64,000 nucleotides of DNA, from NCBI RefSeq assembly GCF_007641235.1, contig NZ_CP038157.1, positions 558,001-622,000 on the forward strand, given 5' to 3'. The stretch comes from Corynebacterium sanguinis. GTDB taxonomy: Bacteria > Actinomycetota > Actinomycetes > Mycobacteriales > Mycobacteriaceae. Of this stretch, positions 54,941 to 64,000 are shown piece by piece. A program made the translations under genes and the position numbers. Position 1 is the stretch's first letter, and each line of letters opens with the position of its first letter. The notes below the pieces were generated by a model. It was given only the letters and a program-made list of their open reading frames with translations. It did no database searches and was not told the DNA's origin.

Positions 54941-55393
54941 ATGCACTTCTCCGCAAAAACACTGCGCAGGTTCATGAATTTCTGGCCGCCGTTTCTCGGC
55001 GCCGGAATCCGGGTTCGCGAATTCGCCGACGACGGCTCGCGTGTGGTGGTGAACCACACGCTGACCAAGTTCAACCGCAACGCCGTGGGCACCGCCTTCG
55101 GCGGCACAATCATGGCGATGACCGACCCGTTTTTCATGCTCGCCTCGATGGCACGGCTGGGCAAGGAGTACACCGTGTGGGATGTCGCGGGCGAGGTGAA
55201 ATTCCTGAAACCGGGAAAGGGAACCATCACGGCGGTGATGGAGATCTCCGACGAAACCTACGATCTGATCAAGGAAAAGACGGCCGACGGATCAAAGTAC
55301 CTGCACTGGTTCGATACCGAGGTCACCAGCGAGGCGGGCGAGGTCGTCGCGCATGTGCGTAGGCAGGTGTACTACCGCCGAAAAAGAAAATGA
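54941..55393 (+). CDS. DUF4442 hot-dog-fold thioesterase-like protein
   Basis: A 150-residue protein of the DUF4442 family (hot-dog fold, related to PaaI-type thioesterases). It has NRNAVGTAFGGTIMAMTDPF near 45-65, with the asparagine and glycine turn of this group, and ends basic (RRQVYYRRKRK). The ATG at 54941 is taken as start; an in-frame ATG lies at 54917. It follows the acyl-CoA ligase by 10 bases. Its stop codon touches the tRNA fragment at 55393, marking the end of the core genome in this window. Confidence 0.85.
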   Translation: MHFSAKTLRRFMNFWPPFLGAGIRVREFADDGSRVVVNHTLTKFNRNAVGTAFGGTIMAMTDPFFMLASMARLGKEYTVWDVAGEVKFLKPGKGTITAVMEISDETYDLIKEKTADGSKYLHWFDTEVTSEAGEVVAHVRRQVYYRRKRK

Positions 55394-55436
55394 GCCACCT
55401 GCGAGAATCGAACTCGCGACCTTCTCATTACGAGTG
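55393..55436 (-). other. 3' half of tRNA-Thr(CGU), attachment-site remnant of an integrated island
   Basis: Read on the minus strand, this 44-base stretch matches a tRNA from the anticodon loop to the acceptor end: anticodon CGT in loop CTCGTAA, variable loop, a perfect 5-bp T-stem with TTCGATT loop, and acceptor strand AGGTGGC plus discriminator T. The 5' half (acceptor 5' strand, D arm) is missing; the sequence to the right does not resemble it. The anticodon stem pairs only partly. This is what integration by a tyrosine recombinase at a tRNA 3' end leaves behind; the intact gene should then be at the other end of the element, beyond the window. Confidence 0.8.
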
Positions 55437-55780
55437 AACCCTTCCTGGCGTTGGCTAGCAACAACGCCACCAAGGACGACAGTAAAAGACCAGATCAGAG
55501 AAGCAATACCGCCAATGAGAAACGGTTAGCGCTCAGAGCGGTGTGTATTTTGTGTGTACTCGCCCGTTACTTTGATGGTGTCCCCATAATGGGGATAGTC
55601 GCGTCTGGACACAGGAGCTTTCCCCTTTCCTCAGTGGTGCGACCAGAGGGAGAAGAAACATCCACCCCGGTGCACCCGCTGCGGTGACAACGACCCATCG
55701 CCCGCAGCAGGTGGCAATCGTCACGGTTATCCCTCTTTTTCAGATTCCTGTCCTCGGGATCAGAAAAAGACGGGGGCCTG
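55437..55780. other. gene-free left border of the copper island
   Basis: About 340 bases between the tRNA fragment and the DUF305 gene. No convincing gene was seen; short ORFs here lack ribosome binding sites and family sequence. It contains an imperfect hairpin at 55735-55769 that probably ends the DUF305 transcript. Confidence 0.6.
55735..55769 (-). terminator. candidate terminator after the DUF305 gene
   Basis: Two 14-base arms (55735-55748 and 55756-55769) pair with two mismatches around a 7-base loop, 12 bases beyond the DUF305 stop. The outer part of the stem is A/T-rich, as seen in bidirectional terminators. Confidence 0.4.
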
Positions 55781-56467
55781 TCATAGGTCAGTGAGCATCT
55801 GCTGCATCTGGGCGATCTCGGCCTCCTGGTCGTTGATAATTTGTTCGGCCAGGGTGATTGCATGGGGATTCTGGCCGTCAGCAACCTCGTCACGGGCCAT
55901 GTCGACCGCACCTTCGTGGTGGGCGGTCATCTGCTCCAGGTAGAGGCGGGCAGCCTCGGTGCCCTGGGCTTCCTCAAGGGCTGTCATGTCCTCCTGGCTC
56001 ATCATCCCGCTCATGCCACCCATCTCGCCGTGATCCATTCCACCCATCTCGTCCATGGTCCCCATGCCCCCAGAGTCGGTGACCGGCTGCTGGCCCCAGG
56101 CCTCGAGCATGGCGTTCATCCGGTCAATCTCCGGTCCCTGGGCGTCAATAACCCCCTGGGCAAACTCCACGACCTGGGCGGGGATACCCTCCTTGGCCAG
56201 GAGCATCTCACTCATCTCCACGGCCTGCTGGTGATGGGGGATCATCATCTGGGCAAACATGATGTCCGCGTCGTTGTGATCGGCGGAGATCTCCCCGTCC
56301 GCCTCAGTCGTCGCCGTGGTGGTCTCGGTCGTCTCAGCGGTAGTCGTCGCAGTGCTGGTGGCCGAGGTGGTGGCGTCGGTGTTGCCTGACTCGGTGGCCT
56401 CACCGCAGGCGGCCAGCGCCAGGGTGGAGGCCACGGCGAGAGCGGAAAGAACAAGGGTGCGCTTCAT
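55781..56467 (-). CDS. DUF305 lipoprotein, copper-island
   Basis: A 228-residue lipoprotein. The lipobox is LAAC, with Cys at 21, after SALAVASTLALAAC. A threonine-rich linker (about 30-60) is followed by a DUF305 ferritin-like four-helix domain with MMIPHHQQAVEMSEML near 76 and the repeat MTAHHEGAVDMARDEV near 185. A methionine-rich insert (GGMGTMDEMGGMDHGEMGGM) near 135 suggests copper binding. DUF305 proteins are common in copper-resistance islands. The ATG at 56467 was chosen. It is downstream of the truncated copper ATPase, so it once followed a full copB. Confidence 0.9.
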   Translation of the reverse strand: MKRTLVLSALAVASTLALAACGEATESGNTDATTSATSTATTTAETTETTTATTEADGEISADHNDADIMFAQMMIPHHQQAVEMSEMLLAKEGIPAQVVEFAQGVIDAQGPEIDRMNAMLEAWGQQPVTDSGGMGTMDEMGGMDHGEMGGMSGMMSQEDMTALEEAQGTEAARLYLEQMTAHHEGAVDMARDEVADGQNPHAITLAEQIINDQEAEIAQMQQMLTDL

Positions 56468-56515
56468 GGTGGAGCCTTTCAGGGTCATATGGGGGCAGTG
56501 GAGAGAAGTGGTGGA

Positions 56516-56677
56516 TCAGTGGACGGCGGTGGATACCGGAGTAGGCGTGGTGTGTTCCTCCTTCGGACTGGTGGGAGCCAGGTGGGCCGGGTCCAGATCA
56601 ATCCGGCGCAGCAGCTGAGCGTTAAGCGCCACCACAATCGTCGACAGCGACATCAACACCGCAGCAGCAGCCGGGGG
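56516..56677 (-). pseudogene. 3' stub of a second copper ATPase gene
   Basis: The last 53 codons of a CopB-type ATPase remain in frame to a stop at 56516: LMSLSTIVVALNAQLLRRID and LAPTSPKEEHT match the end of the intact CopB at 58669-60903 (LMSASTIVVALNAQLLRRID, LAPTESKEEHS). The similarity stops abruptly at 56677, where transposase-like sequence begins. The gene was evidently cut by an insertion or deletion. It lies 48 bases upstream of the DUF305 lipoprotein gene. Confidence 0.85.
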
Positions 56678-56909
56678 AAGCAGAAAAGGGCAGAAACACC
56701 ACTTCCCAGGACTTGACCCCGCGGGATCCGACCGAGGCCATCGTTGAACACCTCCGCGATCAAGGTGTTGCGACGACCACTTGAATCCGCCTTGGGCCCC
56801 GCGATCTGAGTGCATCACCGCGCCTTCGCGCAGGTGGCCGTGGTCCCGGGCCATCGCCAGCGCATCGACGACAGCGAGGTGCGCATGTGCTCGGCCATCT
56901 GCCAGCCGA
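56678..56909 (-). pseudogene. degenerate IS3-type transposase fragment
   Basis: On the minus strand, frame-broken pieces of an rve-type (DDE) transposase are readable: GWQMAEHMRT, then after a frameshift LAVVDALAMARDHGHLREGA and VMHSDRGAQ, then a further frame change. The HSDRGAQ segment is the second catalytic Asp region of IS3-family OrfB. No start, stop or terminal repeats remain. It sits between the copper ATPase stub and the IS6 element. Confidence 0.55.
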
Positions 56910-57753
56910 GGTGCTGTTGCAAAGTTGGGGGAGAACAGCGAAGACTCAGTTTCTCATTCTCTGATGGCCGCTGCGTGTGGGCGTTCTCAGGCCGTCTCGA
57001 AGACCCGGTTGACGTTCACCGCGTCCGGGTTCGGTTGCCCGTAGGCAAACATCGTGCCTTGCCCTTTCCGCAATGAGTGCATCGCCTCCATCCCTTTCAA
57101 CGTCCGATATGCAGATGTCCGGTTCTTAAACGCGCCTTTCGGCCCGAGGATCCGCTTCAGCCGACCATGGTCGCCTTCCAGGATGTTGTTGAGGTATTTC
57201 ACCTGCCGGTGTTCCACTGTTGGCGGGCAGATTCCCTCTGACTTCAACTCGGCGATTGCCCTGGCTAGGGAGGGTGCTTTATCGGTGTTGATCACTCTGG
57301 GATACCCGGCTGACGCATTGGATCTGAGGGCCTTGGCCAGGAAACGCTTCGCTGCGGCCACGTTCCGTTTCGGAGAGAGGTAAAAGTCCAGGGTCTGGCC
57401 ACCGGCGGTGATCGCCCGATAGAGGTAGCACCACCTGCCGCCGACCCGGATATAGGTCTCATCCACCCGCCAGGAACTGGCCTGCCAATCAGGTACCTGC
57501 CGGTACCACCGTGTTTGCTTGCCCAGCTCAGGGGCGTATTTCTGGACCCAGCGGTGAGAATCGTGGTGTGATCAACCGGCACGCCCCGCTCGGTCATCAT
57601 TTCCTCCAAGTCTCGGTAGCTCACCCCGTAGCGGCAGTACCACCGCACCGCCCACAGGATGACCTCGCGAGGGAAATGACGACCCGAGAAGATACCCATG
57701 GCTGTGATTATTTCACCTCGCTCTTCCTACTGCCCCAACTTTGCAACAGCACC
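56910..57753 (-). mobile_element. IS6-family insertion sequence, IS1628-like, frameshifted
   Basis: An 844-base element bounded by perfect 21-bp inverted repeats (56910-56930 and 57733-57753) containing the IS6-type end CTGTTGCAAAGTT. It carries one transposase gene on the minus strand with a frameshift. The 8-base flanks (CCAGCCGA left, GATGCAGG right) are not duplicated, so the copy did not arise by a simple insertion here; recombination between copies or an adjacent deletion is likely. Confidence 0.85.
56987..57699 (-). pseudogene. IS1628-like IS6 transposase with internal frameshift
   Basis: The N-terminal part (57699 leftwards) reads MGIFSGRHFPREVILWAVRW and RDLEEMMTERGVPVDHTTI. The C-terminal part reads DETYIRVGGRWCYLYRAITA, NTDKAPSLARAIAELKSEGI and GPKGAFKNRTSAYRTLKGME, ending VNRVFETA. 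The DDE residues are in DETYI, NTDKAP and near LEGDHGRLKR. Around 57557-57565 two extra bases (ATTCTCACC where ATTTACC is expected) break the frame; corrected, the protein would be 236 residues, the size of IS1628 transposase. Probably inactive unless the shift is a sequencing error. Confidence 0.85.
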
Positions 57754-57796
57754 GATGCAGGTACCCCAAGAGACCGGGCCTGTGGGCAGAGACAAA

Positions 57797-58006: not shown

Positions 58007-58621
58007 CTATTCGGCGGGTTGGATCTCGCTCTCGGTGACCCATTTGTGGTTGATCATGGTCATCTCCCCAGTGTCAATGTCGACCATGTAGACCGTTTCC
58101 TGCGTGGAGTAGTCGATGGTGGCGGTCGCGCCCTGCATTCCCGGCATGTGCTCGGCGTTCAGGACCACCTTGGTGCCGCCGGGGAGCGGTGCCTCGCCCG
58201 GGTCGACAAGCTCCTCGTGCACGACCCACCGGTGATCGGTGACCGGCTCACCACCGTCAGTCGGGGTGTAGCTGACCGAGTAGGTGGTGGTGTCGAAGGC
58301 CCCGGAGATCGTGGCCTGCGCACCGTCCATGCCCGGCATGTGATCAGCCGTGAGCATCACCTCGGAGCCGACCGGGTAGGTCGGATCCGTGGCTTCAGTG
58401 ATGCCCTCCGGGGGCGGGCCACCGTCTTCCGGGTGCTCCATGTCATGACCACCGTCGTCGGCAGTGGTGGTGTCTTCCTGGTGGGTCTCGTTGGTCTCTG
58501 CGGTTGCCGTCGTGGTGCTGGTGGTGTCGGCATCGTCGGAGTTGTCGGTGGCGTCGCTGCAGGCGGTCAGCGCCAGGGTGGAGGTCAGTACCAAGGCGGC
58601 GAGGGTAATGCTGCGTTTCAT
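58007..58621 (-). CDS. YdhK/DUF1541-type lipoprotein, copper island
   Basis: A 204-residue lipoprotein with lipobox LTAC (Cys 21), a Thr/Asp-rich linker, and two tandem DUF1541 repeats: SEVMLTADHMPGMDGAQATI (about 90-110) and TKVVLNAEHMPGMQGATATI (about 150-170), each with a conserved H-M-P-G-M metal-binding-like motif. The family occurs with copper ATPases in Gram-positive bacteria and is thought to bind metal outside the cell; this is inferred. Its signal region closely resembles that of the DUF305 lipoprotein. The ATG at 58621 is 47 bases downstream of the copB stop. Confidence 0.88.
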   Translation of the reverse strand: MKRSITLAALVLTSTLALTACSDATDNSDDADTTSTTTATAETNETHQEDTTTADDGGHDMEHPEDGGPPPEGITEATDPTYPVGSEVMLTADHMPGMDGAQATISGAFDTTTYSVSYTPTDGGEPVTDHRWVVHEELVDPGEAPLPGGTKVVLNAEHMPGMQGATATIDYSTQETVYMVDIDTGEMTMINHKWVTESEIQPAE

Positions 58622-58668
58622 GAGCGTTCCTTTCAAAGGTGGTGTGAGTTAGGGGTCGAGAGACAAGG

Positions 58669-60903
58669 TCAGTCAGTAACGGTTACGGGGGATATCGACC
58701 CACTGTGTTCCTCCTTCGACTCGGTCGGAGCCAGGTGAGCCGGCTCCAGATCAATGCGGCGCAACAGCTGGGCGTTCAGGGCCACCACGATGGTCGAGGC
58801 AGACATCAAGATCGCGCCCACGGCCGGGGACAGCACGAACCCGATCGAGGCGAGCACTCCGGCGGCCAGCGGCACGGCGAGGATGTTGTAGCCAGAGGCC
58901 CAGATCAGGTTCTGGATCATCTTGCGGTAGCTGGCCTGGGACAGCTCAATCATCGACAGCACTGCCCGCGGGTCATCACTGGCTAGGACCACCCCGGCAG
59001 ATTCCATGGCCACATCCGTGCCGGCACCGATGGCGATACCGACCTCCGCGCGGGCCAGAGCGGGGGCGTCATTGACACCGTCACCGACCATGGCCACGCT
59101 CAGGCCACGCTCCTGTAACTGGGTGACCTTGGTGTCCTTGTCCTGGGGCAGGACCTCGGCGAAGACCTCATCGATCCCCAGGTCCTGGCCAACCGCCTGG
59201 GCCACCTGCTGCGCGTCACCGGTGATCATCGCGACCTTCACCCCGCGGTCCTGCAGGGCTTTCACGGCGGCGCGGGATTCGGGGCGGATCTTGTCCTCGA
59301 CGGCCACCGCACCGATGATCTGACCGTCGCGGACAATATGGAGCACACCGGCCCCACGCCCGGTCCAGGCGCTGGTGGTGTCGGTGAGCTCGGCCGGGGT
59401 GGTGAGGTTGAACTCGCGCAGCATGTTCGGCCCGCCCACGAGGATCTCAGCGCCATCGACAGTCGCCCGGACCCCCCGGCCGGAGGCGGCGCTGAAACCA
59501 GTTGCACGGATTTGCCGACGGGAGGCCTCGGGATGGGCGGCCGCGGCCGCCACGATGGCGCGGGCCACGGGGTGCTCGCTGTCTGCCTCCGCGGCGGCGG
59601 CCAGGGCCAGCAGCTCGCCCTCGGTGACGCCGACAGCTGCCGCGACACCGGTGACCGCGTGCGCACCCTCGGTCAGGGTGCCGGTTTTGTCGAAGAGCAC
59701 CACGTCTATGGTGCGCATCCGCTCGAGTGCCATCCGGTCCTTGATGAGCACCCCAGATTTCGCGGCCCGCTCGGTGGAGATCGCAATGACCAGCGGAATC
59801 GCCAGGCCCAGGGCGTGCGGACAGGCGATGACCAGCACCGTGACCGTGCGCACCACGGCATCGTCCGGGCTGCCGATGATGGTCCACACCACCGCGGTGA
59901 TCAGAGCGGAGATCAGCGCGAACCAGAACAACAACGCCGCCGCCCGATCCGCCAGGGCCTGGGCCCGGGAGGAGGAGGCCTGGGCGTCGGCAACCATGCG
60001 CTGGATGCCTGCCAGGGCGGTGTCCCCACCGGTGGCCTCCACCCGGACCCGGACGGTGTTGTCGGTGGCCACGGTGCCGGCCACCACGGTCTCACCGGTA
60101 TCCCGGAAGACGGGACGGGATTCGCCGGTGATCATCGCCTCATCGAATTCGGCGGCTCCGTCGAGGATGGTTCCGTCGGCCGGCACCCGGGCACCGGCCC
60201 TCACCAGCACGACGTCGTCGACGACCAGCTCGGAGATGGCCACGGTGCGGGTGGTCCCGTCGATGACTTTCTCGGCCTCGTCCGGCAGCAGGGCAGCCAG
60301 CGCGTCAAGCGCGGAGGACGCGGCCCCGAGAGCACGCATCTCCAGCCAGTGGCCCAGCAGCATGATGGTCACCAGCAGGGCCAGCTCCCACCAGAAGTCC
60401 AGGTCAAAACCGCCCAGCCCCAGAGTGGTGACCCAGGAGGCGACAAACGCCACGGTGATGGCCATGGCGATCAGGAGCATCATCCCGGGTTGGCGGGATT
60501 TCAGTTCGTTCCATCCGCCCTTGAGGAAAGGCGTTCCGCCGTAGACGAAGATGATCGTGCCCAGCACCGGGGGGATCCAGGTGGATCCGGGGAATGCCGG
60601 GAGGTGGTAGCCGAGCAGGTGGGCGACCATGGGGCTGAAAATAACGACGGGAATGGACAGAATCAGCGACCACCAGAAGCGGTCCCGAAACATTGCGGTG
60701 CTGTGTCCGGCGTGTTCGCCGTGACCATGAACGTGGTGGTCTTCGTCCAGGGCGGAGTGCGGGTGATCGTGGGGCATCGCCTGGCCGTGGGTGTCGGCAT
60801 CTGCGTGGTGTTCGTGGCTGGCATGATCCGGGTGGTGGGTGTGGTTTGTTTCCGGAGCGGGGTGATCACCATGGTGATCGCCGGAATGGTGGGGAGTGCT
60901 CAT
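58669..60903 (-). CDS. copB: copper-translocating P-type ATPase, CopB type
   Basis: A 744-residue P1B-3 ATPase exporting copper. The N-terminal 70 residues are very histidine-rich (HHPDHASHEHHADADTHG). The actuator motif MITGESRPV is near 250. The ion-path motif CPH (VIACPHALGLAIP) near 360, not CPC, marks the CopB subgroup. DKTGTLTEGAH is near 405, SEHPVARA near 440 and GDGVNDAPAL near 620. Eight membrane helices are expected. The ATG at 60903 follows GGAACG. Downstream of the CopZ-like gene by 51 bases and upstream of YdhK, all minus strand. Confidence 0.95.
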   Translation of the reverse strand: MSTPHHSGDHHGDHPAPETNHTHHPDHASHEHHADADTHGQAMPHDHPHSALDEDHHVHGHGEHAGHSTAMFRDRFWWSLILSIPVVIFSPMVAHLLGYHLPAFPGSTWIPPVLGTIIFVYGGTPFLKGGWNELKSRQPGMMLLIAMAITVAFVASWVTTLGLGGFDLDFWWELALLVTIMLLGHWLEMRALGAASSALDALAALLPDEAEKVIDGTTRTVAISELVVDDVVLVRAGARVPADGTILDGAAEFDEAMITGESRPVFRDTGETVVAGTVATDNTVRVRVEATGGDTALAGIQRMVADAQASSSRAQALADRAAALLFWFALISALITAVVWTIIGSPDDAVVRTVTVLVIACPHALGLAIPLVIAISTERAAKSGVLIKDRMALERMRTIDVVLFDKTGTLTEGAHAVTGVAAAVGVTEGELLALAAAAEADSEHPVARAIVAAAAAHPEASRRQIRATGFSAASGRGVRATVDGAEILVGGPNMLREFNLTTPAELTDTTSAWTGRGAGVLHIVRDGQIIGAVAVEDKIRPESRAAVKALQDRGVKVAMITGDAQQVAQAVGQDLGIDEVFAEVLPQDKDTKVTQLQERGLSVAMVGDGVNDAPALARAEVGIAIGAGTDVAMESAGVVLASDDPRAVLSMIELSQASYRKMIQNLIWASGYNILAVPLAAGVLASIGFVLSPAVGAILMSASTIVVALNAQLLRRIDLEPAHLAPTESKEEHSGSISPVTVTD

Positions 60904-60954
60904 GACGTTCCTTCCGCTCAACCCGGTCGGGGTCGAGATGATGGGTAAAACAGA

Positions 60955-61281
60955 TCAGGATAAGACGGTGTAGCCGGCCTCCTCGATGGCCCGGCGAACC
61001 ATCTCCGGAGGTACGACACCGGTGACCGTGACGGTGGAAACACCACCAGCAGCGAGATCAATCTGGACGTCGTCGACCTGGGGGAGGGCCTGAAGGGCCT
61101 GGGTCACGCTTTTCGCGCAGTGTCCGCAGGTCAGGCCGGTGACCTGGTAGCTAGGGGAGGACCCTCCTGCTGACGAGTCGCTGGCGGCAGGGATGGAGGC
61201 GGTGTCGGCACGTGAGGCAGGTCCGCAACAGCTGCAGCCGTGGGAGGCCATCGGCAAGAGGCGGGGCGGGGAGGTGATCAT
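60955..61281 (-). CDS. heavy-metal-associated domain protein, CopZ-like
   Basis: A 108-residue protein. The C-terminal HMA domain (about 45-108) has the metal site GLTCGHCAKSVTQ (CxxC) and ends VVPPEMVRRAIEEAGYTVLS. The N-terminal 40 residues carry an additional cysteine cluster, HGCSCCGPAS, near residue 17, which could bind extra Cu(I). Probably a copper chaperone delivering to CopB. The ATG at 61281 follows TAGGAGC. A CsoR-type palindrome lies 49 bases upstream. Confidence 0.9.
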   Translation of the reverse strand: MITSPPRLLPMASHGCSCCGPASRADTASIPAASDSSAGGSSPSYQVTGLTCGHCAKSVTQALQALPQVDDVQIDLAAGGVSTVTVTGVVPPEMVRRAIEEAGYTVLS

Positions 61282-61392
61282 GGGAAAGCTCCTACGGGTC
61301 GGTGGGATGCGATAACGCTCGCTAGCGTATACCCCCCCGGGGTACATTCTCAAGGGGTGGAGGGCACGGCCCTCACGCGGGGCAGGGTGTGG
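61282..61392 (-). promoter_or_regulatory. promoter region of the copZ-copB-ydhK operon
   Basis: A 111-base gap between copS and the CopZ-like gene. It includes the palindrome at 61330-61344. The GGTATA sequence at the operator edge could serve as -10, so a repressor bound there would cover the promoter. Confidence 0.55.
61330..61344. promoter_or_regulatory. CsoR-type operator candidate
   Basis: TACCCCCCCGGGGTA is a palindrome of two TACCCC/GGGGTA arms around three bases, matching the known CsoR operator pattern of actinobacteria. No csoR gene is in the window, so a chromosomal CsoR would have to act here. Confidence 0.55.
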
Positions 61393-62520
61393 TCACCGAG
61401 CAGCCTCCTCACTGTCGGGAGGAGACAGCGGGAGGCGGAGGGCAAACACCGCTCCGCGACCGGGTCCGGGGGAGGTGGCGGTGAGAGTGCCGCCGTGGGC
61501 CTCGACCAATGCCCTGGAGATGGTCAGGCCGATACCGGCCCCGCCGTTGTCCCGGCTGCGGGCGGCATCCCCCCGGTAGAAGCGTTCGAAGATGTGTCCG
61601 AGCTGGCCAGGTGGGATGCCCTCGCCGTCATCGGCGACGTGGATGAGCGCGGTGGACGCCCCCTGTCGGTGGACGCTGATCCGGACCTGCCCGCCGGCCG
61701 GGGTGTGCCGTAGCGCGTTCGACAGGAGATTGCTCATCACCTGGCCGAAGCGTTGCCGGTCCACGAGCACCCGGGCGGTGTCCGTAATGGTCTCGACCTG
61801 TAAATCGACGCCTTTGTTAGCATAAGCTTCCCCCGCGGCAGCAGCGGCGGTATGGAGCAGATCCCCGAGCCCTTCCTCCGCCAGGTCCAACTCGATCCGG
61901 TGTTCCTGGGCCCGGGAGACATCGTCGATGTCTTCCATCAACCGGGTCAGGCGGGTGAGTTGGTCAGCCATGATCGTGTGGGTGGCATTATTCCAGTCCA
62001 CGGCCCCGTCCTGGAGACCATCGAGGTAGACCGTGAGCACCGATAAGGGGGTGCCCATTTCGTGGGCCAGATCAGAGAGCATCTGGCGGCGGACCTGTTC
62101 GGTGTGTTCCAGCCGGTCGGCCATGGTGTTGAAGGCATGTGCCAGGGTGGTGACCTCGGGGCCTGCTTCTCCGGCGGGCACGCGGATGCGATAGTTGCCG
62201 GCCGTCAGGCTGGTAGCGGCGCGGGCGAGATCTTGCAGGGGGGTGCGCAGGCGACGCGATAACCACAGGCTGGCAAGCAGGGCGCTGATCAAGGCGGTGG
62301 GCAGGGCGACGGCCAGGGTGATCAGGTTGGCGTCCCGGTAGGCCTGCTCGGCATGGAACAGCTCCAGCGAGGGGTCCTCCCGGCCGGCCATCAACATATG
62401 ATCATGGAACAGGGTCGGGCCCACCATCGTGGCCACGGTCGCGGCCACCAGCAGGCTAATCACCACGACCACCACCTGGGCGGTCAGGAAGCGGAAGGTC
62501 AGGCCGGGTCCGTGATTCAT
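61393..62520 (-). CDS. copS: copper-responsive sensor histidine kinase
   Basis: A 375-residue kinase: first membrane helix VVVVVISLLVAATVATMVG (about 12-30), a short periplasmic loop of about 40 residues, a second helix near 75-95, a HAMP domain (about 96-150), the histidine box SDLAHEMGTPLSVLTVYL near 152, N box NLLSNALRHTPAGG near 270, and G boxes DDGEGIPPGQL and GGAGIGLTISRAL. It overlaps copR by four bases (ATGA). The neighbours and the CopR box identify it as the copper-sensing kinase; copper binding itself is not visible in the short sensor loop. Confidence 0.9.
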   Translation of the reverse strand: MNHGPGLTFRFLTAQVVVVVISLLVAATVATMVGPTLFHDHMLMAGREDPSLELFHAEQAYRDANLITLAVALPTALISALLASLWLSRRLRTPLQDLARAATSLTAGNYRIRVPAGEAGPEVTTLAHAFNTMADRLEHTEQVRRQMLSDLAHEMGTPLSVLTVYLDGLQDGAVDWNNATHTIMADQLTRLTRLMEDIDDVSRAQEHRIELDLAEEGLGDLLHTAAAAAGEAYANKGVDLQVETITDTARVLVDRQRFGQVMSNLLSNALRHTPAGGQVRISVHRQGASTALIHVADDGEGIPPGQLGHIFERFYRGDAARSRDNGGAGIGLTISRALVEAHGGTLTATSPGPGRGAVFALRLPLSPPDSEEAAR

Positions 62521-63239
62521 GGCTGCCCCACCCGGTAGCCCACGCCACGCACGGTGTCGATAAACCCCCGGCCCCGGGTGTCGGTGCCGAGCTTGCGACG
62601 CAAGTTGCCGATGTGGACATCGACGATGCGTTCATCGCCGACCCAGGTGGTGTCCCAGACCTCGGTGACCAGGTCGTGGCGGGTCAGCACCTGGCCGGGG
62701 CGCAGGGCCAGGGCAACCAGCAGCTCGAACTCCGTGTGGGTGAGCTCCACGGTCGTCTCCCCCACCCGCACCTGATGGGCGACGGGGTCAAGGATGAGGT
62801 CACCAACGATCAAAGGGGTGGTCACCTGCGGTGGGGTGGTGCTGGTGCGCGGGCGGCGCAGCACCGCATGCACCCGGGTCACCAGTTCCCGGATGCTAAA
62901 AGGTTTGGTGATGTAGTCATCCGCCCCCAGGGTCAAACCGCTGATCTTGTCGTCCTCGCTGCCACGCGCGGTGAGCATGAGGATGTAGCAGTCCGAGAAG
63001 GTGCGGATCCGTCGGCACACCTCCAGGCCGTCGAGTTCGGGCAGCCCCAGATCCAGCACCACAACATCGGGGGAAAAGTGACGGGTCTCGTCCACGGCCT
63101 GGATGCCGGTGTGCGCCTGGCGGGTATCGAAGCCGGCCCGGATGAGGTAGGAGGCCACCATCTGAGCCAGGGGTTGTTCATCATCGACGACCAGCACCCG
63201 CCCCGGGGGCGTGGCGGTGGTCGGTGTGCGGTCAGCCAT
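62517..63239 (-). CDS. copR: copper-responsive response regulator, OmpR family
   Basis: A 240-residue regulator: receiver domain (about 12-125) with acidic DDE at 19-21, phosphoacceptor Asp in DVVVLDLGLPELDG near 62, Lys in DYITKPFSIREL near 112, then a winged-helix DNA-binding domain (about 145-238) ending RRKLGTDTRGRGFIDTVRGV. Autoregulation is likely, since a CopR-type direct repeat lies 58 bases upstream of its start. Operon copR-copS with translational overlap. Confidence 0.92.
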   Translation of the reverse strand: MADRTPTTATPPGRVLVVDDEQPLAQMVASYLIRAGFDTRQAHTGIQAVDETRHFSPDVVVLDLGLPELDGLEVCRRIRTFSDCYILMLTARGSEDDKISGLTLGADDYITKPFSIRELVTRVHAVLRRPRTSTTPPQVTTPLIVGDLILDPVAHQVRVGETTVELTHTEFELLVALALRPGQVLTRHDLVTEVWDTTWVGDERIVDVHIGNLRRKLGTDTRGRGFIDTVRGVGYRVGQP

Positions 63240-63641
63240 AGACCCCAGTATCGCTCCGGCCAGGGGAATACCACCCTCGCTCAGTGCTTGGCGGGGAAAA
63301 CTTCATCAAATCTTCAAACGTCACCCTTCGACCGCCGTCACCCCTGTGCCTCACCCCGGGCCGGTGGCATCGCCTCCCCTGGTCGGTTCAGCAGGCGCCA
63401 CCAGGGATTTCACTGCCTGCACCGCATACCCGGGGCGGGTGGAAGGACATCGCCCACGGCTGTGGGGTGGTGTCCCGGTGGTGACCCAGCCCACCGAATT
63501 CACCCCCTTTTCGCCCTGTTATAAGGCTGTGAGCAGGGTTTTTGGATTCTAGCCCGTCAGGCACCCGTGCTAGATAAAGGTATGGCATCGACCTTGAGGC
63601 GGTGTCTTCTTATGGCCTTACCACGATCCAAGGAGATTGAC
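63240..63641. promoter_or_regulatory. divergent regulatory region, copRS / cueP-like gene
   Basis: About 400 bases without a gene, between copR (left) and the CueP-like gene (right). It contains the CopR box at 63297-63316 near copR and an AAGGAG ribosome binding site for the right gene at 63629-63634. Short ORFs in this stretch lack starts with ribosome binding sites and look like GC-rich chance frames. Confidence 0.6.
63297..63316 (-). promoter_or_regulatory. CopR box (9-bp direct repeat)
   Basis: On the minus strand the sequence reads TGAAGATTT-GA-TGAAGTTTT. The first unit equals the C. glutamicum CopR motif (TGAAGATTT repeated after two bases), and the second differs in one base. It is 58 bases upstream of copR and suits copper-induced autoregulation; the CueP-like gene is 326 bases away on the other side. 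Confidence 0.65.
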
Positions 63642-64000
63642 GTGAAACGAGCAGCGATCGCAGCCGCCGCCCTTGCCCTCGCCCTCACGGGGTGTTCGGC
63701 CGCCGACCCGGAACCCACCGCCGACGGGACGGTGTCCCAGGACACATTCCTGACTGCCCATGGCCTGGCCGCCATGGACGCGGTGGAGATCATTGATCAC
63801 CTCGACCGGCAGAAGGTCACTGAGCGTCCCACGGATCTGATCGCCTCAGTACGTGGCAATGAACTGCTGCTCTCGAGCGATGACCAGGAAGTCGTGGTCG
63901 ATCTTCCCGACAATCAGACGTATGTCTCGATCGCACCCTATCTCACCTCCACCCACGACTGCTTCTACCACAGCCTCACGACCTGCCTGGGGGAACTCGA
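63642..64000 (+). CDS. cueP: CueP-type periplasmic copper-binding protein (partial, right edge)
   Basis: The first 119 codons of a lipoprotein-like gene starting at GTG 63642 after AAGGAG. The signal region ends in LALTGCSAAD, a lipobox with Cys at 18. Then come FLTAHGLAAMDAVEIIDHLD and, near the window edge, THDCFYHSLTTCLGEL, the cysteine-containing copper-site segment of CueP. CueP binds copper outside the inner membrane in enterobacteria and is found in actinobacterial copper islands. It is divergent from copRS and completes the export-sensing-buffering set. The remainder lies off the window. Confidence 0.85.
   Translation, partial: MKRAAIAAAALALALTGCSAADPEPTADGTVSQDTFLTAHGLAAMDAVEIIDHLDRQKVTERPTDLIASVRGNELLLSSDDQEVVVDLPDNQTYVSIAPYLTSTHDCFYHSLTTCLGEL

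Follow-up and report, generated by a model that had tools for sequence, protein, structure and literature searches.

Tyrosine recombinases that insert mobile DNA into tRNA genes have been described for several kinds of bacterial element. The Islander report (PMC4383910) gives a 3′ fragment of the target gene for 3,760 of 3,919 islands and an anticodon-centred site for 2,083 of the 3,919. Among the integrases of actinobacterial integrating elements (AICEs) in tRNA genes, a second source (PMC3218068) includes a group that targets a tRNA-Thr gene. The locus described here, in Corynebacterium sanguinis, is like the Islander tRNA islands (PMC4383910) in its regenerated tRNA, the displaced 3′ fragment at the opposite end, the internal integrase and the anticodon-centred site; it is unlike them in that its recombinase is broken and holds an inverted duplicate of the left end. 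With AICEs (PMC3218068), it shares a tyrosine recombinase and the use of a tRNA gene 3′ end, but no replication or transfer genes, including those of the conjugation or TraB type, were recognised among the island proteins scanned. Structural phage genes were not recognised among these proteins either. An island targeted to a tRNA gene with its crossover in the anticodon loop is of a kind already known, and only its possibly self-disrupted integrase is mildly unusual. In the literature searched, nothing on a tRNA-Thr copper island in Corynebacterium appeared among the matches listed.

The Displaced tRNA Half and Its Empty Site

The window, the whole stretch of DNA that was analysed, covers 64,000 nucleotides (G000:C1:558001-622000) of a single contig of 2,362,885 bases. 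On its reverse strand, bases 55393-55436 are a tRNA-Thr(CGU) 3′ half, which begins at the anticodon loop and runs to the discriminator base (Table 1). The preliminary description had placed this half correctly to within one base at each end. The 44 bases that it expected to recur in an intact gene are a genuine exact repeat, which is slightly longer, at 46 bases, and reaches one base beyond the discriminator. It had also described the half as touching the last core gene, and the final two bases of the half do overlap the stop codon (55391-55393) of the DUF4442 gene. The 5′ half is indeed absent: ARAGORN found no whole tRNA in the window, and no intact 5′ half adjoins the fragment. No RNA was found at this site by Rfam at gathering scores; under relaxed limits the tRNA model reaches 17.6 bits (cut-off 29), a low score that is expected of half a gene.

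Table 1. Features of the island and its borders; plain numbers are window positions.
Feature	Position	Strand	Basis or remark
DUF4442 (thioesterase-like), last core gene	54941..55393	+	PF14539, 1.5e-19; protein next to the G020 empty site 99% identical
Displaced 3′ half of tRNA-Thr(CGU), left attachment-site copy	55392..55437	-	46 bases shared exactly with the intact tRNA gene
Left arm of perfect inverted repeat, 2,323 bases	55432..57754 (L004:433-2755)		From tRNA junction to inner IS6 end
Left terminal sequence by attachment site	55438..55562		Same junction in G096; 98.4% over 1,291 bp including the tRNA half (L081)
40-base sequence also present in further genomes of the genus	55563..55602		Exact copies in G167, G239, G213, G018
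CopM-family metallochaperone (DUF305) lipoprotein	55781..56488	-	NF049983, 96 bits (cut-off 90); PF03713 matched in the identical right-arm copy
Copper P-type ATPase gene, 3′ remnant	56516..56682 (right edge approximate)	-	L004:1552-1683 80% identical to L004:3705-3836 in the intact ATPase
IS6-family element	56910..57753	-	Reading frame in two overlapping pieces; PF13610 on one piece
DUF1541 lipoprotein	58007..58636	-	PF07563, 1.6e-47
Copper-translocating P-type ATPase	58669..60921	-	TIGR01511, 571.6 bits (cut-off 397)
CopZ-like heavy-metal-associated protein	60955..61353	-	NF047957, 60.7 bits, under cut-off of 85; plasmid counterpart annotated as heavy-metal-associated domain protein
Sensor histidine kinase	61393..62520	-	Strong matches, none above cut-off among 25 listed; plasmid counterpart so annotated
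Response regulator	62517..63239	-	Strong matches, none above cut-off among 25 listed; plasmid counterpart so annotated
CueP-family metal-binding protein	63639..64000, on to L004:9218 past the window	+	NF038094, 189.2 bits (cut-off 60)
Right arm of inverted repeat	G000:C1:625346-627668 (L004:12347-14669)		Ends inside the recombinase gene
Recombinase, N part	L004:14628 to about 15018		PF14659; PF22022 below its cut-off
Recombinase, C part	ends L004:19241		PF00589
Intact tRNA-Thr(CGU)	G000:C1:632317-632392 (L004:19318-19393)	same as half	Contains the 46-base repeat

The preliminary description had further predicted that an intact tRNA-Thr(CGU) with the same bases, and an integrase, would lie to the right of the window, beyond position 64,000. 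The second copy of the repeat is found there, at G000:C1:632319-632364, within an intact tRNA-Thr(CGU) gene. It matches at 46/46 bases on the same strand, is the one further copy in the genome, and is spaced 18,927 bases from the first. A chance repeat was rejected, as the 46 exact bases also form half of an intact tRNA gene. The predicted integrase is present as well, as a tyrosine recombinase whose C part ends 76 bases before the tRNA 3′ end, but it is in two pieces. The comparison with a strain without the island, proposed at the same time, yields an empty site in the relative G020, in the order left flank, intact tRNA-Thr, right flank. In this genome, a single intact tRNA-Thr(CGU) stands directly at the DUF4442 stop codon, with the identical overlap, and both island flanks meet at that one tRNA (loci L008, L079). 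In L079, the stretch corresponding to the left flank is 4,499 bp long and 99.2% identical; the right flank corresponds in two stretches, one of 681 bp at 98.7% and one of 9,869 bp at 96.0%.

Both copies of the attachment site, an intact tRNA and a recombinase are present in this genome, and a close relative has the empty site. It is as good as certain that an 18.9-kb island (G000:C1:613392-632364) was inserted here by a phage-type tyrosine recombinase, and that the half tRNA represents the displaced end of its chromosomal attachment site. A stray duplicate of part of a tRNA gene, with no connection to integration, is barely conceivable, given the recombinase beside the intact tRNA, the common strand and order, the same junction in G096 and, above all, the G020 empty site, which in effect refutes this reading. 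In the integration that we favour, the recombinase would have recombined a circular island with the anticodon-loop region of tRNA-Thr(CGU); the island’s own 3′ half would have restored a whole tRNA gene next to the recombinase, and the old 3′ half would have been left 18.9 kb away.

The exchange appears to have altered the end of the tRNA gene. The native gene, as found at the G020 empty site, has no encoded CCA, while the island-supplied 3′ half encodes CCA, with a long hairpin and T residues 11 bases on. This hairpin has a predicted fold of -30.3 kcal/mol (z -2.51), and 2 of 200 shuffled sequences fold equally well. The main hairpin was not listed by a terminator scan of the tRNA strand, and its description as terminator-like rests on folding plus reading of the sequence. 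The CCA and hairpin region also occurs in G096 (100 bases at 97%), and tRNA-Thr(CGU) genes elsewhere in the genus are found both with and without CCA. On this comparison, the new 3′ half of the tRNA, with its CCA and terminator-like hairpin, was evidently supplied by the island. A GCAGGTCA motif is found downstream of the tRNA at 5 of 17 integrase-tRNA sites among those listed, which are too few to claim anything.

A Copper Module as Cargo

The genes between the two attachment-site copies include a P-type ATPase, CopM, CopZ-like, CueP, multicopper-oxidase-like and TlpA/CcdA-like proteins and a two-component system, a cargo that would be expected to give copper tolerance. Not all of these assignments are equally firm: the multicopper-oxidase-like protein scores 242.6 bits with TIGR01480, under the cut-off of 479, the match of the TlpA-like protein is likewise below its cut-off, and the CcdA-like protein was named by eye, with a weak family match only. 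The DUF1541 lipoprotein is one that we take to be of the YdhK type. The IS6-family element has 24-base terminal inverted repeats that are 96% complementary, and it matches an annotated IS6 transposase at 97.5%. The ATPase 3′ remnant (56516-56682) is found in each arm of the inverted repeat described below. In G096, the end of the remnant belongs to an intact ATPase. The coexistence of the remnant and the intact ATPase suggests that two copper modules have recombined.

A large part of this module is carried by two plasmids of Rothia terrae (NZ_CP062961.1 and NZ_CP062960.1), which match alike and contain DNA pieces 95-98% identical to that of the island; the copper module thus also occurs on plasmids. 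Among 49 plasmid records with matches, 34 point to Corynebacterium. In NZ_CP062961.1, CopM (DUF305), the Cu-ATPase, a metal-binding protein, the two-component system, CueP and multicopper oxidase follow in the same order as in the island. The Rothia copy differs in being plasmid-borne, in having no tRNA ends and in lacking the IS6-DUF1541 stretch between CopM and the ATPase. Beside the copper module, Rothia terrae p2 (L143:2498-4294) has an annotated cadmium resistance transporter and a recombinase family protein. The plasmid match starts at window position 55603 (L004:604), just inside the 40-base repeat, which is probably the end of a common insertion sequence. A longer query covering 55563-55602 matched 40 of 242 genomes, all of them, except G000 itself and G096, only over or near the 40-base stretch.

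The Same tRNA Site Across the Genus

A search with the 3′ half, allowing up to 2 mismatches, matched 195 of 242 genomes of the genus and gave no match in the other 47. Two or more copies of the half occur in 8 genomes. Two of these were set aside: G226 carries the half at the beginning of two contigs, which apparently share a single split tRNA, and G256 has two intact tRNA-Thr(CGU) genes 2.2 kb apart (G256:C1:218137-220370). Truncated halves are found in at least six of the 242 genomes (G000, G096, G027, G008, G159 and G258), a count that is a lower bound, since diverged cases would escape. In all six, the shared stretch takes in the anticodon loop with the whole of the 3′ side and stops 0 to 5 bases 5′ of the loop. 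Where the tRNA and the half lie on one contig (five genomes), the half is downstream on the same strand; in G258 they are on different contigs. The crossover deduced from these shared stretches belongs to the anticodon-centred class.

An array at the same tRNA-Thr(CGU) in another species, G096, is a close counterpart (L184, L101; G096:C1:331000-382000). It is like the island here in having the same island end, left junction and recombinase-side terminator region (97% over 100 bp), and unlike it in having an IS3-like element, named by eye, and an IS6 remnant at the expected position of the recombinase, together with a 38-kb prophage-like region that has its own integrase and lies between the island and the intact tRNA. 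The intact tRNA-Thr(CGU) occupies C1:331714-331789, and an integrase domain lies at 333194-333703; two more 3′ halves, at 369723 and 380959, bring the half copies to three. Tail and endolysin genes precede the second half copy, and these genes and the half copies indicate a stacking of the prophage-like region with the copper island at a single tRNA. An integrase-domain search of G096 gave five places, none of them within the copper-island copy. At the same tRNA, G027 has a 9.2-kb element (G027:C2:857800-868000; L185) with an uninterrupted related integrase and HTH, DUF3631 and Prim-Pol genes. From its gene content this element looks like a phage satellite or a plasmid-like element.

A Recombinase Apparently Broken Twice

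As read from its remaining parts, the recombinase gene of the island appears to be disrupted at two places: an IS21-like element splits it, and a perfect inverted copy of the island’s left end stands where its start would be. Between the two pieces lie an IstB gene and the Mu/rve-type transposase part of the IS21-like element. Upstream of both stands a Mutator-type transposase gene, presumably IS256-like, which, judging from the gene order, appears to interrupt the IS21-like element. With its recombinase in this state, the island cannot be taken to be mobile today and is probably stranded, barring a related integrase acting in trans on its intact 46-base ends. Nor is the island in its original form, as its left end is duplicated, inverted, in the recombinase gene.

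The closest relative of the N part is 50% identical (G027), and those of the C part are 47% (genus) and 48% (Nocardia) identical, shorter segments at 51% and 72% aside. With the best relatives only about 50% identical, we infer the target choice of this recombinase from its position, and we likewise infer that the present recombinase made the insertion. Among 40 related recombinase loci scanned for tRNAs (29 genus loci and 11 named ones), a tRNA gene lies no more than about 250 bases from the matched stretch at 25, and at 3 of these it is tRNA-Thr(CGU). Named integrase relatives in genome contigs amount to 14 loci, of which 10 are from Nocardia, one is from Pseudarthrobacter and 3 are uncultured. 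Integrase matches were found in 2,205 phage records, all at less than 60% identity (the best among those listed at 43%), and viral contigs hold 2 distant relatives. A plasmid search with the integrase end matched 77 records, and in the 20 of them listed the matches cover the tRNA only.

An Inverted Copy of the Left End Inside the Integrase Gene

The two arms of the inverted repeat are 100% identical, and each has its outer end at the point of attachment crossover, the left arm beside the tRNA half and the right arm in the integrase gene. Both junctions, that with the tRNA and that with the integrase, fall within one and the same hexamer, TCACTC. This arm end also adjoins the tRNA half in G096, with 98.4% identity over 1,291 bp, and on this ground it is the island’s true left end. 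The arm ends at residue 22 of the integrase, and 23 of 34 alignments of the N piece, from a search of 43 loci, start at residues 23-26; in a second set of relatives, 7 of 9 alignments start at or just past the junction. Another 9 of the 34 start further inside the integrase, and 2 of the 34 (L051, L057) and 2 of the 9 (G059, G271) reach a few residues into the arm. Because the alignments mostly start past the arm, the start of the integrase gene has most likely been replaced by the arm. Derivation of the arm from the integrase gene was dropped, both for this reason and because of the G096 arm end at the tRNA junction. At the inner side, the arms end at two inverted IS6 copies, and no others were found in the genome among 40 of 78 candidates scored; target duplications of IS6 were not seen by eye at the four flanks.

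The arm could well have been copied during repair, a reading that stops just short of an even chance. A broken end in the right IS6 would have invaded the inverted left IS6, copied out to the left attachment site and switched through the six-base microhomology TCACTC into the recombinase gene. Such copying takes a single event with no second copy of the island, agrees with the 100% identity of the arms, which marks them as recent, and has up to six common bases at the junction to draw on, though the recombinase’s original bases there cannot be read. It leaves unexplained why the switch fell at the attachment crossover when it could have fallen anywhere in some 1.5 kb of arm outside IS6, and this coincidence counts against a random switch.

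It is also possible, though more doubtful, that the recombinase acted on its own gene: it would have joined an attachment-like sequence there to the left attachment end of another, circular copy of the island, after which an IS6-IS6 deletion of the surplus would have left the inverted arm. This fits with one arm end meeting both the tRNA half and the recombinase remnant within the same six bases, with the start of most integrase relatives just past the junction and with the termination of the arms by two inverted IS6 copies, the sole ones among the candidates scored. In addition, the recombinase DNA beyond the junction and the anticodon arm both have AATGAG, and G096 retains about 80 bases of IS6 at the right end of the cargo, in matching orientation. 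AATGAG, however, lies 5 bases from the arm at the tRNA junction but 6 bases from it in the recombinase, and the presumed overlap of 7 bases is mismatched, which argues against a clean conservative exchange. The alignments that enter the arm, or start further in, also speak against it, as do the failure to find an intermediate or a second genome with the integrase-arm junction and an exact 17-base arm-end probe that had no match in viral contigs. The complete scenario, in which the integrase inserted the left end of the element into its own gene and beheaded itself, a self-inactivating auto-integration that turned a mobile island into a permanent one, seems unlikely on these sequence comparisons. 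Alternatively, an assembly error may lie at the right, integrase-arm junction, which is present in this genome only.

Integration at tRNA-Thr(CGU), with the half tRNA as its displaced mark, explains the right part of the window as a horizontally acquired copper island with exact ends and an empty site. Islands, a prophage-like region and a satellite-like element have all used tRNA-Thr(CGU) in this genus, which shows it to be a recurrent docking site. Finally, the inverted left end within the integrase gene provides a concrete example of how an island may become fixed.
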